From a bacterium (GTDB lineage: Bacteria > Ratteibacteria > UBA8468 > B48-G9 > DTJG01), in assembly GCA_029552985.1 (NCBI GenBank), contig JAKPDB010000034.1, forward strand, positions 1-33,761: 33,761 nt of DNA, in the 5' to 3' direction. Each line of letters opens with the position of its first letter. Position 1 is the stretch's first letter. The notes beneath the pieces were generated by a model. That model saw only the letters and a program-made list of their open reading frames with translations, did not search any database and was not told the origin of the DNA. Positions 7,224 to 24,076 of this stretch are shown here, in pieces. Made by a program: the position numbers and the translations under genes.

Positions 7224-8176
7224 TCAAAATGTCAGTGTGACATTAATTGAGTTAGTGAATTTTTTGAGAATAATAGATTCTTTTTCTGGACAATATTCTC
7301 CGGCATCCCAATTCCTTGCAGCAATCTCATCTGGTTCTATAATCTCTTGAAAAATAAGGTACAATGGACCAACCAAACTATCTCTGCACAGAAAACTTCC
7401 ATGAGTGAACCATTTCCCACCGTCCACATAATGAATAACCAGTCCGTCATGTTCGGGCCATGGAGGAGCTGCTAAAACCCAGGTACCGTCGCCAGCCGGC
7501 ATTACAGGGCAACGTGCCATAGCAGAGAAAAAAGATTGCCTGATATTATTTTTTAGCTCCATTGCTGACTGTTTTATTTTCCCTGCACACGACTCTTCGA
7601 TTTTTTCAGACATTTCTGATACCCTTTGCAGTCCAAGATATGCGTACCCGTTCAACATAAAACTATGATAGAAATCATCAGGGTCTCCCACTTTTCCATC
7701 AATTAGCCCGTATCCTTTATTGAGAAATTCTTCTTTTTTATTATTTTCAATCCATTTCAGTATGTAGTCAACTGCTTTTAGAATCACCGGCTTAATCCTT
7801 TTTACCCAGGATGAATCTTTATTATACTAAAATGCTGCCCCATTGTCCACAAAACAGCACCGGTTTCCAGCATATAGTTGTCAAAATTTTGCATGAAGCC
7901 ATTTTCATGTTGTTTTTCAATAAAGAACTGTAAACATCTTTTAGCAAGTTTATGCCATCCCATTGTATCAAACACCTGAATAATTGGCGCACTTTCAGAC
8001 CCAATAGGGCTATATTTCCCTACGCAGGCAGCAACTGGTTTGTCTGGCTCAATTCCATACGAGATAAGATCAAGTCGAATAAGCCCGGCTTTTATCATGT
8101 TTTCAATTGTTCCACCATTAACCCTGATGACTCCTTGCTGAGGTTGTTTCCAGATTATCGCTATTGTTTTTCTCAT
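7224..8176 (-). pseudogene. Alpha/alpha-toroid glycosidase-like gene split by a frameshift
   Basis: Two ORFs read as one protein. The first (ATG at 8176, overlapping the PIG-L stop as ATGA, with SD AGGA) ends at TAA 7804-7802 and includes KYSPIGSESAPIIQVFDTMGW, then LETGAVLWTMGQHFSIIK. The second runs to TGA at 7224 and is open in the -1 frame across the junction, reading KDSSWVKRIKPVILKAVDYI. Joined, this looks like consecutive helices of a six-hairpin glycosidase domain. The break falls in the A-rich stretch near 7816-7826, and one missing base would explain it. The joined protein would be about 317 aa, short for such enzymes. The second half could start at GTG 7787, which has AAGGA 8 bases upstream. 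A true mutation, a sequencing error and two separate chains all remain possible. Exact GH family not assignable. Confidence 0.65.
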
Positions 8177-8931
8177 TTTATTTCCTGACATAATTCGCCC
8201 AGAATTTGCTTAAGAATATTATCTTGTGGATGACCGTTTCCCTTATGTTGAATAAATCCCTCAGCAAACTCAACTCCAATTTTTTCACCTTCCTTTCTTG
8301 ACTGCCTCTTCATGATTTCAAGATAATTTTCCCATTTGTTATGGTACTTAAGCCATTCCATCTGGGATTTATGGCAGGCAAGCATTTCCTCTTTAATGTT
8401 AATGGTGGATGAAATGTCAACAATACAGGTTAATGGAAGCTCATTTCCAAAAATATCTTTCAAACCACTGGCATTCCAGTAATAAAGATATGGAAATCTA
8501 TTTGTTGGTTTTAACCCTGGTTCTTTGTCATAATTGGGTACTGACGCGATATAACAGGCATTTCTCACAAGTCTTGATGTTTCTTTGTGGTCTATCAGAT
8601 AATCAAATGGGAAAGTGGTAAACACAATTAGTGGGTCAACCTTCCGGATAATCCTCACAGATGCCCTTCTATAGAAATCGTTGTATTCAACCTCTAAGTC
8701 AGAACCTCCTGCATAGTGGAAAAACCCACCTATTATTTTTGCAGAATTCTCGTTTTCTTTCAATCGGATATTTCTTATTTCATGCGCTGCCAAAAATGGA
8801 TGACCAACTTCACCACCTGTCATTGTAGCCAGATGTATTTCAAACCCTTTTTTTACCAGTAGTGCAAGTGTTCCCGCACACATAAATTCGATATCATCTG
8901 GATGGCATCCAAATGCAAGAATTCTTTCCAT
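8173..8931 (-). CDS. PIG-L family deacetylase (LmbE-like)
   Basis: 252 aa, the normal length for the zinc-dependent GlcNAc-PI / LmbE-type de-N-acetylases. The metal motif HPDD is at H10-D13 (FGCHPDDIEF), and H115 lies in YLIDHKETSRLV. TMTGGEVG around 37-44 follows the usual second strand and loop. These enzymes remove N-acetyl groups from GlcNAc-type sugars and related small molecules. No signal peptide, so it probably acts in the cytoplasm on imported sugars. The SD AAGGA precedes the ATG, and the 3' end overlaps the glycosidase fragment by 4 bases (ATGA). It lies 55 bases downstream of the secreted unknown protein, inside the glycan operon. Confidence 0.88.
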   Translation of the reverse strand: MERILAFGCHPDDIEFMCAGTLALLVKKGFEIHLATMTGGEVGHPFLAAHEIRNIRLKENENSAKIIGGFFHYAGGSDLEVEYNDFYRRASVRIIRKVDPLIVFTTFPFDYLIDHKETSRLVRNACYIASVPNYDKEPGLKPTNRFPYLYYWNASGLKDIFGNELPLTCIVDISSTINIKEEMLACHKSQMEWLKYHNKWENYLEIMKRQSRKEGEKIGVEFAEGFIQHKGNGHPQDNILKQILGELCQEIK

Positions 8932-19659: not shown

Positions 19660-20808
19660 TCATAAGGTTCTGCCATGTTTACGATAATATTGAAGACCTT
19701 CGACAAAAGCCAGAATATTTTTCAGTGGTACCTGTGGAGGTATTGAACTTGAACCACCCAGAAACAATCCTGTTTTGGGTCCATGTTCTACCAGCCATTT
19801 CATTTCATTCTTTACATCTTCAGGAGTGCCAAATGGCAATGTTCTTGTGACAGAGACACCCGCAATAATAAAAAGGTCTTCTCCGTTTTTTGTTTTCATT
19901 TTGCATATTTTTTCATAATCCATTCCACATTCATATTGAAAGCCCTGAAATCCTTTGATCCCACATTCTATCAACCTTGGAACCATTTCCATCAGGTTTC
20001 CATCACAATGCCATATCAGGGTAATTTTATCTACCAGTACCTTTATTGATCGTTCAAAATGTGGAAACCACATTTTATCAAGGGATTTAATGTTAACCAA
20101 TGTACCTTTTTCGCCTGCCATATCATGGTCAAGACGAAGCAGAGGGGCTAAATTACCTTTTTCATAAGCAAGGGCAACTGCGTTATTGTATAACTGGCAG
20201 TAATCAGCAACCAAACTGAAATATTTTTCTATCACATCAGGGTACAATGCATAAGCCATAAAATAATTTTCATAACCATAAGTTCCATATCCAAAACCTG
20301 GGAACATTGCAACCCCATATGGAACTTTCAATATATCAGGACCGAATTCTGTTTGGATTTCTTTTTCGTTATTGATGATCTTTTCTGCAATTGGAACAAT
20401 AAAATCTTCTGACCATGTTTTAATATTGTGTTTGATTTTTGGAAAAATGAATTTTTCCATATGCTCAACCACTGCTTCAGGCGAATCAATTTTCATCCCG
20501 TCGCAGACAATTTCTTTTGCACCTGTGGTCGGTGTATCCTGTTTTTTTTCAAAACCTTTTGTTCCTATAGACAGAGGATTTTCAGGAATATACTGGTCAA
20601 TCATACAAGTTCCTATATTCTTTTGCATTTTCAGATACGTCTGCCTGGGAAATTTTACATACGCACCGGGTTGTTCGCCAGCAAGATAATCTATTACAGA
20701 ATGTTCCATTGGATGAATGACCCAGCTTGGTATTTTTTTTGTCTGTTTTTTATAAATAGTGTCAAGTGCAAGAAGTGCATTTTCGCCAAGAGATATTTCA
20801 TCCACCAT
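19660..20808 (-). CDS. Uroporphyrinogen decarboxylase-like (URO-D superfamily) protein
   Basis: 382 aa from the ATG at 20808, chosen because AAGGAGG lies 5 bases upstream; an in-frame ATG nine codons earlier lacks an SD and lies inside the previous gene. URO-D superfamily features include the C-terminal barrel region with LIWHCDGNLMEMVPRLIECGI, then FIIAGVSVTRTLPFGTPEDVKNEM and the glycine-rich FLGGSSSIPPQVPLKNI. The superfamily holds haem-pathway decarboxylases and corrinoid-related methyltransferases. The divergent N-terminus and the setting make haem synthesis unlikely. It is the last gene of the FAD oxidoreductase/sialidase group. Substrate unknown. Confidence 0.82.
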   Translation of the reverse strand: MVDEISLGENALLALDTIYKKQTKKIPSWVIHPMEHSVIDYLAGEQPGAYVKFPRQTYLKMQKNIGTCMIDQYIPENPLSIGTKGFEKKQDTPTTGAKEIVCDGMKIDSPEAVVEHMEKFIFPKIKHNIKTWSEDFIVPIAEKIINNEKEIQTEFGPDILKVPYGVAMFPGFGYGTYGYENYFMAYALYPDVIEKYFSLVADYCQLYNNAVALAYEKGNLAPLLRLDHDMAGEKGTLVNIKSLDKMWFPHFERSIKVLVDKITLIWHCDGNLMEMVPRLIECGIKGFQGFQYECGMDYEKICKMKTKNGEDLFIIAGVSVTRTLPFGTPEDVKNEMKWLVEHGPKTGLFLGGSSSIPPQVPLKNILAFVEGLQYYRKHGRTL

Positions 20809-20827: not shown

Positions 20828-22720
20828 TCAAACAAACACCCATTTTGCCATTCGCAATACTGCGTATGGATGATTTTTCAAAACCTCATACCATACTGTA
20901 ATTATGCTACCATCATCCAGTTGTACTGATGATGGATAACCAAGGTCACAACAGCATCCATCATCACTTATCACAATTGGTTCTGACCATGTTTTTCCCT
21001 CATCCTTACTGATACTTGCGCGAATTCCATAGGGATTCTCCCGATATCCATAAGTTGTTAGAAGATGTCCATTTTGAAGACAAATTAAGTGAGCAGGTAA
21101 TCCTTTTATCCCAGTGGGATGCGGAACACTCCATGTTTTTCCACCATCCTCAGATTCAGATTGTAGTATTTCTCCAGGAAAAACCGATTGACACTGGTTT
21201 CTGATATGCATAATTAGGGTTCCTGACTGTGTTTCAACAAGATGGGGTTCAACAAAGTTGTCAGGTGGTACAGGTGGTAAGACAGGAACAATACCTGAAA
21301 TGACCCAGTTTTTCCCATCATCTTTTGATTCTGCAACTGCAATGTTTGCATTATCCCTGTCTATGCCAAAAAATGGTGCACCATAAAGAGAACGTTTTTC
21401 TGCCTGAAGGGATTGCCTTCCAGCAAAAAGAAGTCTTCCATCCTTTAACTGAACTGGTCCATGGGGACTATGGACAGGTATTTTTATTCTTTCTGACCAG
21501 GATTTTCCGCCATCTTCTGAACGAATCATCCATGTATCCATTTCTCTCCCAGTATCCACATTTTCTTCTATAAGTTTATCCCGAATTCTGCGCCATTTTT
21601 TACACGTGTCTTCTGACAACCACCTGATAAGTCCAATTTCAGCCCTGTATAAATAATTCATCCAGGTTAATGATGTAAACCAGCTAACAAGTAATGTGTT
21701 TTTATTCGTCTCAATCATACCAGGGTCCCTATCATCAAGCCAACTATTATAAAGAACATCCGGACCATCCCAGGTATTTCCGCTGTCATCGCTTCGATAA
21801 AGATATATTTTCCCATAAGGGCAGACATGGGCCTGTCTTCCACCACTGCAGACAACAAGCAATTGTCCATTTTTTCTTTTGCATAACGTTGGCCATCCAT
21901 GATAACTGTTATCCCTGCTGATGATTTCTTTTTTTAAAACTTTTACCTTCATGGCTTCTCCTGTGCTGATGGATTGCTTCATCTGTATAAGCATTGAAGA
22001 ATATTGATCAGTGCGCCTTCTTACTTCATCACATAGTGTATCAACAAAATCCCTTATTTTAAAAAGTCGTGAGTCCGCTTGTCCAATAAATGCGCGGGAA
22101 AGTTTCCCGAGTGAATCAAAATACTGGCCGAGTTTTTCTCTGTTAAGCCAGATGTAAACTGCCTTTTTACTAGTCAAAAGCCTCTCATTCCAGAAAATCA
22201 CTTCCACAAGATGACAGAAGGTTGATGAACGATAGGCAACACCCAGCATCAGGACTTTGCTTTTTGGGTGCAAATAGAGTTTCATAAAAGGGCTTTCATA
22301 TCCAAAATCACATCCAAATTGTTCATGGTCCCAGGGTGAAACCATGCCTCTTGCACCACGATGACCTGAAACAAATTCACAGGCGTTTGCGCCCCGGGCA
22401 GCAACTGAATGGCAATAATGATCTGAACGAAAAGTACCTGGCATTGTTCTGAAATATTCTGTAAGATATCCTGTCGTTGATGGTGTGGTTTTTACATCCC
22501 ATGTGCCAAGCCTGTCCTTCACAAGATTAAATACAGGCATCAATATAGTTCCACTTTCTCCGACAGATTCCATCAGCGCATCAATAACTGTCTGGGCACC
22601 ACCCTCTACTTTTCCAATGCTTTTGAAAGAAGAATGTATAAAAAGGACATCTCCTTGTTCAACTCCGATCTTTTTCAGGTCAGAAACAATTTTTTCTTTT
22701 GTAATCAGTTGTTCTTCCAT
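20828..22720 (-). CDS. AAC(3)-like N-acetyltransferase fused to an Asp-box sialidase domain
   Basis: 630 aa in one frame. Residues 1 to about 250 resemble the aminoglycoside N(3)-acetyltransferase family (VEQGDVLFIHSSFKSIGKVE, GTILMPVFN, HSVAARGANACEFVSGHRG, SKVLMLGVAYRSSTFCHLVE). Members outside resistance loci acylate amino groups of other compounds. From residue 257 on is a sialidase/BNR propeller with five canonical SxDxGxxW boxes, the first at 310-317 (SDDSGNTW). Met257 is preceded by an internal SD, so the propeller may also be made alone. No signal peptide. The ATG at 22720 has no SD, but a promoter sits 7 bases before it. An acyl-transferase plus glycosidase in one chain would suit trimming and modifying amino or acylated sugars; this is inference. 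Confidence 0.82.
   Translation of the reverse strand: MEEQLITKEKIVSDLKKIGVEQGDVLFIHSSFKSIGKVEGGAQTVIDALMESVGESGTILMPVFNLVKDRLGTWDVKTTPSTTGYLTEYFRTMPGTFRSDHYCHSVAARGANACEFVSGHRGARGMVSPWDHEQFGCDFGYESPFMKLYLHPKSKVLMLGVAYRSSTFCHLVEVIFWNERLLTSKKAVYIWLNREKLGQYFDSLGKLSRAFIGQADSRLFKIRDFVDTLCDEVRRRTDQYSSMLIQMKQSISTGEAMKVKVLKKEIISRDNSYHGWPTLCKRKNGQLLVVCSGGRQAHVCPYGKIYLYRSDDSGNTWDGPDVLYNSWLDDRDPGMIETNKNTLLVSWFTSLTWMNYLYRAEIGLIRWLSEDTCKKWRRIRDKLIEENVDTGREMDTWMIRSEDGGKSWSERIKIPVHSPHGPVQLKDGRLLFAGRQSLQAEKRSLYGAPFFGIDRDNANIAVAESKDDGKNWVISGIVPVLPPVPPDNFVEPHLVETQSGTLIMHIRNQCQSVFPGEILQSESEDGGKTWSVPHPTGIKGLPAHLICLQNGHLLTTYGYRENPYGIRASISKDEGKTWSEPIVISDDGCCCDLGYPSSVQLDDGSIITVWYEVLKNHPYAVLRMAKWVFV
21950..21962 (-). 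promoter_or_regulatory. Internal ribosome-binding site and start codon in the AAC(3)/sialidase fusion
   Basis: AGGAGA (21962-21957) lies 5 bases before an in-frame ATG (21952-21950, Met257). The position coincides with the boundary between the acetyltransferase and propeller domains, and would give a free 374-aa sialidase-like protein. It may also be the relic of two genes that fused. Confidence 0.5.
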
Positions 22721-22727
22721 GGTAGTA

Positions 22728-22756
22728 ATTATAGAATGTCTCCTGAAGTTTCACAA
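22728..22756 (-). promoter_or_regulatory. Candidate promoter giving a leaderless mRNA for the AAC(3)/sialidase gene
   Basis: TTGTGA (22756-22751), a 17-base spacer and TATAAT (22733-22728) lie on the minus strand, overlapping the last codons of the FAD oxidoreductase gene. Only 7 bases separate the -10 box from the ATG at 22720, so transcription would begin at or next to the start codon. The nearest SD-like AGGAG is about 20 bases away, too far to serve. Confidence 0.55.
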
Positions 22757-24076
22757 ACTCATTCCTGCATTTCGAAGGGTAGAACGTAATTTAGAAACAG
22801 GAATTTCTCGTGGCATACAATGTTCTTTTACTGCGATCGATGCAGCAATGCCAACTGCTTCTCCAATTGGCATACAAACTACCATCACCCTTGTTGAACC
22901 CAGTGCCCGATAATCAGCAGAAATGCACCTGCCACCAGTAAGAATTCCATCAAGTCCTTTTGGAAGAAAACACCTGTACGGAATTTCATAATGGGTACCG
23001 GGTTTTAAATACTCGTGTTTGAAATCCTTTCCACAAGGGTCATGGACATCTATTGAATTACAACCTGGTACCACCCCGTCTTCAAAATGCCGTGCTGAAA
23101 TCACATCTTCTCTTGACAGGATATAGTCGCCAATGATGCGACGCGTTTCACGAATTCCAACCTGCGCTGCTGTTCTGTCAAGATAACAGTTTTCAAATCC
23201 TGGGACATATTTACGAAGAAAACGTATTAAACAATCAACCTGTCTACGTGATTCGATCTCAGCCCTTGTGAGGTCTTCAACATCACAGCCATTCACATTC
23301 AAGACATTTGTTGCATTGAAAAAGAAGAATGAACTTTTCGGGTTTACTGGCTCACCCCGTTTTATTACCCTTCCATAAGAGAAAAACCTTTCAGTGGGGA
23401 TTGTCCACTCATTGTTTTGCTTTGCTTCAGCAATGAATGTCTTCACTTTCATAAAGGCATCAACAGAAATCTTTGTGACGTCAACATTACCAACAATCAC
23501 CTCAAGAGTTACAGGTTGAAGAATATCTGGCCTTCCATGACCGATTTCAAATTGGGCACCTGCTCGTGCAGCAATATCTCCATCCCCTGTGGTATCAATA
23601 ATCACCTTACCAAAAAATGCCTGTCTTCCTGATTTACTTTCAGTAATCACCCCTTTTACCACATTGTTTTCAACAATGGGTTCACATATCCATGAATGAA
23701 ACAGAATTGTGCAACCTGCCTCAAGAACCATTTCCTGAGACACCATCATCATACTTTCAGGGTCAAAAACCATGCTATGGGTTTTTTCATCTCTCATCCA
23801 GGCACCACCATATTTTTCGAGCGAGTGTAAAAATTCATGGGTAATGCCGCCGACAATGACCTGGTTTCCATCATAAATGGAACCAAAATCTACCATCATT
23901 CCTGCTGTTGCAGTACCTCCAAGAAAGCCATATCGTTCAATCAGCAGGGTTTTTGCGCCTGCCCTTGCTGAAGCAATTGCAGCGATAAAACCAGAAGGAC
24001 CTCCGCCGCAAACAATCACATCGTATTTCCCTTTTACAGGCACCGTTCTTTCTTTTTCAATAAAATATTCCACCAT
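22751..24076 (-). CDS. FAD-dependent oxidoreductase (FAD_oxidored-type)
   Basis: 441 aa. The FAD-binding Rossmann motif is VIVCGGGPSGFIAAIASARAG around residues 20-40, followed by an acidic strand end (LLIERYGFLGGTATAGMM). IDTTGDGDIAARAGA and a late GILTGGRCISADYRALGSTRV complete the FAD-binding pattern of this large family, found often in glycan-degrading PVC genomes. No signal peptide or twin-arginine motif is visible. The ATG has AGGGG 6 bases upstream. It is the first gene of the group leading to the acetyltransferase/sialidase fusion (30-base gap, with its own promoter) and the URO-D-like gene. The substrate is not evident. Confidence 0.85.
   Translation of the reverse strand: MVEYFIEKERTVPVKGKYDVIVCGGGPSGFIAAIASARAGAKTLLIERYGFLGGTATAGMMVDFGSIYDGNQVIVGGITHEFLHSLEKYGGAWMRDEKTHSMVFDPESMMMVSQEMVLEAGCTILFHSWICEPIVENNVVKGVITESKSGRQAFFGKVIIDTTGDGDIAARAGAQFEIGHGRPDILQPVTLEVIVGNVDVTKISVDAFMKVKTFIAEAKQNNEWTIPTERFFSYGRVIKRGEPVNPKSSFFFFNATNVLNVNGCDVEDLTRAEIESRRQVDCLIRFLRKYVPGFENCYLDRTAAQVGIRETRRIIGDYILSREDVISARHFEDGVVPGCNSIDVHDPCGKDFKHEYLKPGTHYEIPYRCFLPKGLDGILTGGRCISADYRALGSTRVMVVCMPIGEAVGIAASIAVKEHCMPREIPVSKLRSTLRNAGMSL

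Follow-up and report, generated by a model that had tools for sequence, protein, structure and literature searches.

A candidate lineage-specific fusion of an AAC(3)-fold acyltransferase gene with an Asp-box propeller gene in a single bacterial genome

The active site of the GH33 sialidases includes an arginine triad, the first arginine of which belongs to the RIP motif, an acid/base aspartate carried on the loop that follows the first blade strand, and a Glu/Tyr pair together with the later arginines. The solved structure closest to the propeller described here is the uncharacterised Dfer_1899 (PDB 5hx0), while the best PDB matches of its fusion partner include 3e4f, 3sma (FrbF) and 2nyg (YokD), with BA2930 among them. 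According to one source, the His and Glu of the T-x-x-H-x-x-E (TxPhiHPhiAE) motif are the catalytic residues of this acyltransferase fold, and BA2930, FrbF and YokD are without activity on aminoglycosides (PMC8956665). In the 33,761-nucleotide stretch of DNA analysed here (the window), the two folds are found in one gene.

This gene encodes 630 amino acids in a single unbroken open frame on the minus strand, and the first frame of the plus strand over the same stretch contains many stops (Table 1). An Antibiotic_NAT match (residues 28-228, E 3.8e-39) is followed by a BNR_2 match (residues 395-606, E 1e-25), both above the curated Pfam cut-offs, which confirms the original prediction that one frame joins an AAC(3)-fold domain to a downstream propeller. 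The propeller half had been described as five-boxed, and it contains exactly five SxDxGxxW Asp boxes. In the structure model this half, with pLDDT mostly >90 for residues 257-630, is complete and starts at about residue 257-260, so that the AGGAGA and ATG do lie exactly at the domain boundary, as had been proposed.

Table 1. Positions in the window of the fused gene, its parts and its two flanking genes
Feature	Coordinates	Strand	Evidence
Fused gene, 630 aa + stop	20828..22720	-	ORF, Pfam
Antibiotic_NAT (AAC(3)-fold) domain, ~residues 1-247	21980..22720	-	Pfam, PDB matches, free orthologue ends
His170-Leu-Val-Glu173, His/Glu pair of TxPhiHPhiAE motif	22202..22213	-	
Linker KQSISTGEA, residues 248-256; first residue uncertain by several	21953..21979	-	Alignment with free orthologues
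AGGAGA, ribosome-site-like, 4 nt 5' of internal ATG	21957..21962	-	
Internal start codon, Met257	21950..21952	-	Aligns with free propeller starts (G010, G020)
Six-bladed Asp-box propeller domain, residues 257-630	20831..21952	-	BNR_2, structure model
Asp box 1, SDDSGNTW, residue 310	21770..21793	-	
Asp box 2, SEDGGKSW, residue 401	21497..21520	-	
Asp box 3, SKDDGKNW, residue 465	21305..21328	-	
Asp box 4, SEDGGKTW, residue 523	21131..21154	-	
Asp box 5, SKDEGKTW, residue 571	20987..21010	-	
FAD_oxidored (PF12831), upstream, ends 30 nt before fused gene	22751..24076	-	Pfam
URO-D family gene, downstream, starts 19 nt past fused stop	19660..20808	-	Pfam

The ends of free relatives fall at the same boundary. 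The nearest relatives of the N-terminal half are free genes (G191 at 54% identity, G122 at 52%, G588 at 53%, G650 at 48% and G1439 at 54%); such relatives span 47-54% identity and appear to belong to Planctomycetota-, Verrucomicrobiota- and Armatimonadota-type genomes. The C-terminal ends of these five orthologues align with window residues ~242-251, the last of them placed by eye. Because the free orthologues end there, the acyltransferase is whole and the linker only ~5-14 residues long, most simply KQSISTGEA as judged from the alignment. On the other side of the joint, propellers at 43-44% identity were found in three of the 35 genomes of the phylum (G010, G011 and G020), as a free gene in each. 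Those of G010 and G020, both signal-less, start at approximately the Met257 equivalent (MKRIQGKHGVV... and MEKLKTENGII..., respectively), and for the G011 gene an internal ATG close to that point is the most likely start.

We searched for the fused protein in five phylum-level samples, comprising 35 genomes of its own phylum and 392, 387, 396 and 291 genomes of the others. In these 1,501 genome searches no frame outside the window carried both halves, and both occur in the genomes searched as separate genes. The sets were samples rather than full phyla and were searched under E-value limits, and since only the 3-4 best candidates were scored per genome, the counts of single-domain matches are lower bounds. 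Among 72,556 plasmid records, 3,291 match one half or the other and none covers 80% of the query, and a locus search with the single fused protein returned 25 pattern matches and 0 relatives. The proposal that AAC(3) followed by a propeller is not a standard order thus held up in a domain-architecture search of other genomes; a literature search on the combination found no report, and our statement is limited to that search.

Twenty propeller-bearing frames longer than ~500 codons were also checked as possible further fusions, namely L158 (766 codons), L159 (727 codons), the 16 stretches L187-L202 from Verrucomicrobiota-type genomes, L218 and L219, and all were rejected for lack of an AAC(3) match. 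Two other candidates, L049 (625 codons) and L082 (530 codons), likewise gave no AAC(3) match and appear by eye to be high-GC open frames extending 5' of the true start.

A scan of 84,980 species genomes with a four-sequence alignment yielded 60 loci of the propeller subfamily, none of them with an AAC(3) match; no AAC(3) gene lies beside the propellers of G010, G011 or G020, and no propeller match was found in the stretches fetched around the five free AAC(3) orthologues. Of the two findings that the original prediction named together as evidence against itself, separate genes in relatives and read coverage betraying an assembly error, the first was observed: relatives do carry two separate genes, which were never adjacent in the loci examined.

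The gene sits in a same-strand run between the FAD_oxidored gene and the URO-D gene, homologues of the latter being present in 15 of the 35 phylum genomes. The window also encodes a GntR regulator, a Heparinase_II_III_C protein and a DUF4838 protein (Pfam), which we read as typical company for glycan breakdown. GntR and DUF4838 genes also accompany the free AAC(3) gene at L185, and other free orthologues have a GH63/MGH1-like gene (L156) or an HGD-D gene (L186) as neighbours. Orthologues of the FAD gene occur in two of the seven other genomes of the genus (G007 at 78% and G001 at 73%), where the fused gene is absent from its side, and no propeller of the subfamily was found in the seven sister genomes at E 1e-40. 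That the sisters keep the FAD gene without an adjoining fusion suggests that the insertion or fusion was recent, and the lack of sister copies means that the fused gene is either new to the lineage or lost in the others; it may have arrived already joined or have been joined on the spot. Elsewhere on the contig, two minus-strand frames (7802-8191 and 7224-7787) look by eye like one glycosidase-type protein split by a frameshift; this likely frameshift, at ~7800-7830, is either a decayed gene or an assembly base error.

The explanation that we favour, if by no wide measure of confidence, is a true lineage-specific fusion of two glycan-catabolism genes that arose when a stop codon was lost and the second ribosome site was retained. 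The ancestral operon, serving glycan catabolism, would have consisted of the FAD oxidoreductase, the acyltransferase, the propeller and the URO-D protein, in which the gene for an AAC(3)-fold N-acyltransferase was followed head to tail by that for a free Asp-box propeller devoid of a signal. Once the acyltransferase stop had gone, the halves would have been joined through a few residues, and the second gene's ribosome site and ATG would have remained inside the frame. As the loci examined include no relative in which the two lie side by side and unfused, we infer rather than observe that they once adjoined. Both halves would serve one pathway, with the propeller as a glycoside-cleaving enzyme outside GH33 and the acyltransferase modifying, by acylation, an amino-sugar or amine that the cluster processes; both probably act inside the cell, because an acetyl-CoA-like donor is expected and no leader is present.

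Less probable, yet deserving real weight, is that these are two ordinary adjacent genes and that the acyltransferase stop is missing in the assembly only, through an error of sequencing or assembly or a decayed strain variant, so that the cell makes two proteins. The second gene does retain its own ribosome site and ATG, the halves stand apart in all relatives found, and of the 19 codons 238-256 at the joint, 8 would become a stop by one substitution. Moreover, the fusion is known from one genome, a single fragmented metagenome assembly (2.2 Mb, 178 contigs, 86% complete), so the lost stop could be an error, and a further gene on this contig probably carries a frameshift, a sign that errors or decayed genes may be present in the sequence. 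However, no indel is required to account for the frame, both halves reading on unbroken with the joint in frame, and the AAC(3) domain is often fused in this phylum, as described below.

Returning to the favoured stop-loss fusion, we compared its two possible starts. In a 16S-tail duplex score the Met257 ribosome site reaches -7.4 kcal/mol, a strength equalled or exceeded by 10 of the 202 internal in-frame ATGs in 23 window genes, itself included (a ~5% event), and the strongest internal ATG overlaps the genuine start of the following gene. It is the position at the domain boundary, not strength alone, that makes the Met257 site meaningful. At normal spacing from the first ATG of the fused gene there is next to no ribosome site (-0.1 kcal/mol), which counts against the fusion. 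A further AGGAGA lies at 22744-22739 on the minus strand, 18 nt upstream of the first ATG and nearer to in-frame ATA and ATT codons. Given the scores of -7.4 and -0.1, a free propeller is quite likely also made from Met257 if the frame is as written; the whole frame would then be translated and accompanied by some free propeller.

This possibility can be extended, tentatively and with rather little confidence, to a dual-product gene, in which one message would give both a fused cytoplasmic acyltransferase-propeller and a free propeller starting at Met257. The propeller would be a non-GH33 enzyme of the RxxHxC...DDRD...H...E...R...DLGY pattern, and its fusion partner would hint at an acylated amino-sugar pathway.

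The modelled propeller superposes on 5hx0 with Z 40.4 and an rmsd of 2.3 over 320 residues, and 5hx0 is also the best PDB sequence match of this half, while GH33 sialidase structures score Z about 32-35. The RIP site reads GWP in the window protein (Gly275-Trp276, in YHGWPT), and the tryptophan is present in 60 of 61 aligned relatives, the remaining row having a gap. R295, H298, C300, G303, D329, R331, D332, H420, E491, R507 and R560 are invariant (61/61), whereas Y595 is found in 60 and R567 in 43 of the 61. The GH33 yardstick was one RIP-bearing L061 paralogue, in which MAFFT placed a two-column gap at the RIP point; E491 and R507 align with its Glu and Arg, and its GDHG stretch falls, in the sequence alignment only, on CPYG of the window protein. 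Of 64 propeller stretches selected, 57 entered the alignment (A2), which omits L059 and L063 (the same places as L026 and L027), the second L061 paralogue, and the L086 and L089 pairs, assumed to be near copies of L085. The label sialidase, used in the original prediction, therefore fits the fold alone: the first GH33 arginine is replaced across the 61-sequence subfamily and the acid/base loop looks replaced. Judged from these residues, the propeller is probably a glycoside-acting enzyme with a specificity other than that of GH33.

The subfamily is widespread, its record titles naming Planctomycetes, Acidobacteria, Verrucomicrobia, Chloroflexi and Clostridia among others, and is marked by an invariant RxxHxC, DxRD, H, E and R, a near-invariant DLGY and no RIP arginine. 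At L083 (2829-7551), L085, L086 and L089, which are gut Clostridia / Oscillospiraceae assemblies, two to four paralogous propeller genes stand in tandem. By eye, a twin-arginine-type leader precedes the propeller in ten loci (L044-L051, L053 and L054), and none does at L055, L056, L058 and L071, among others; the window copy is also without a leader, and a cytoplasmic site of action is expected for its N-terminal partner.

It is improbable, in our judgement, that the protein is a two-step glycan-editing enzyme kept by selection, with a terminal sugar removed by the propeller and the same glycan, or the sugar set free, modified by the acyltransferase. Each domain keeps the residues conserved in its own family or subfamily, and the gene run includes sugar-catabolism genes, which speaks for this reading. 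However, the fusion occurs in no relative and so gives no sign of having been selected, the propeller is only putatively a sialidase, and the structure model has no usable AAC(3) half from which an interdomain interface could be read. The alignment behind the model consisted of propeller relatives plus one AAC(3) row from a viral contig; because MAFFT misplaced that row and pLDDT is <50 over residues 62-220, the AAC(3) half and any interface were left unused. Scanning viral contigs with five AAC(3) sequences turned up two relatives, L203 and L204, both weak. A second structure comparison (VIA-align) lists propellers only and so bears on the propeller half alone. The original prediction of a new type of sugar-editing enzyme had co-occurrence of the domains as its only basis; rather than a new class of enzyme, the gene has the look of a recent fusion, confined to one lineage, within a sugar-breakdown cluster.

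The N-terminal half scores 135 bits against Antibiotic_NAT (PF02522; Pfam cut-off 25). Its motif reads T167-F-C-H170-L-V-E173, with Val in place of Ala, a change shared with the five free orthologues examined. It scores 96 bits against the aminoglycoside 3-N-acetyltransferase model NF033082 (NCBIfam AAC_3), far below the equivalog cut-off of 270, and of the five NCBIfam AAC(3) models that it matches, it reaches the cut-off of none. The description AAC(3)-like is thus apt for the fold and the His-Glu motif and goes too far if taken to mean an aminoglycoside 3-N-acetyltransferase. An aminoglycoside resistance enzyme with an attached propeller, to which the Pfam name of the first domain would point, is very improbable in view of that score, the inactivity on aminoglycosides stated for BA2930, FrbF and YokD in PMC8956665, and the location of the gene in a catabolic cluster.

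Fusions of the AAC(3) domain are common in this phylum. Antibiotic_NAT occurs in 24 genes of 18 of the 35 phylum genomes, and classed by open-frame length, 13 of these are in frames of ~800-960 codons, 7 in frames of ~508-526, one is the window gene and 3 stand alone, so that long frames hold 21 of the 24, the window's counted. We applied Pfam to three other long-frame genes: L222 combines M28/DUF4910 with Antibiotic_NAT, L005 (G000:C14) combines Antibiotic_NAT with AP_endonuc_2, and in L220 (G000:C95) Antibiotic_NAT is the only domain matched, close to the end of a chain of 902 aa. Genes of like size to L005 and L220 are present in sister genomes. That such fusions are common makes the window fusion less odd, and the propeller is a new partner for a fusion-prone domain.

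If the fusion is real, it would offer a fresh case of the merger of neighbouring genes in which the ribosome site of the second gene can still be read in frame, and it would link glycan breakdown with an AAC(3)-fold enzyme that does not serve resistance. The analysis also highlights a large sialidase-fold subfamily for which the fold does not warrant the annotation sialidase.

Compared with L222 (M28/DUF4910 and AAC(3)) and L005 (AAC(3) and an AP_endonuc_2 TIM barrel), the window protein likewise couples this acyltransferase domain to another enzyme-like domain, but the partner differs, and frames of their sizes recur across genera whereas the window fusion was found once. Its N-terminal domain resembles the Antibiotic_NAT proteins of the FrbF, YokD and BA2930 type in fold (by sequence), His-Glu motif and domain length, and differs from them in being fused at its C-terminus. 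The propeller differs from 5hx0 in being fused and without a leader. With the GH33 sialidases (1eut, 2bf6 and 4bbw, for example) it shares the six-bladed fold and the Asp boxes, and it has putative counterparts of the Glu, Arg and Tyr of the later blades, whereas Gly-Trp occupies the position of their first arginine and their Asp loop seems to have been swapped for the invariant RxxHxC motif of the propeller subfamily.
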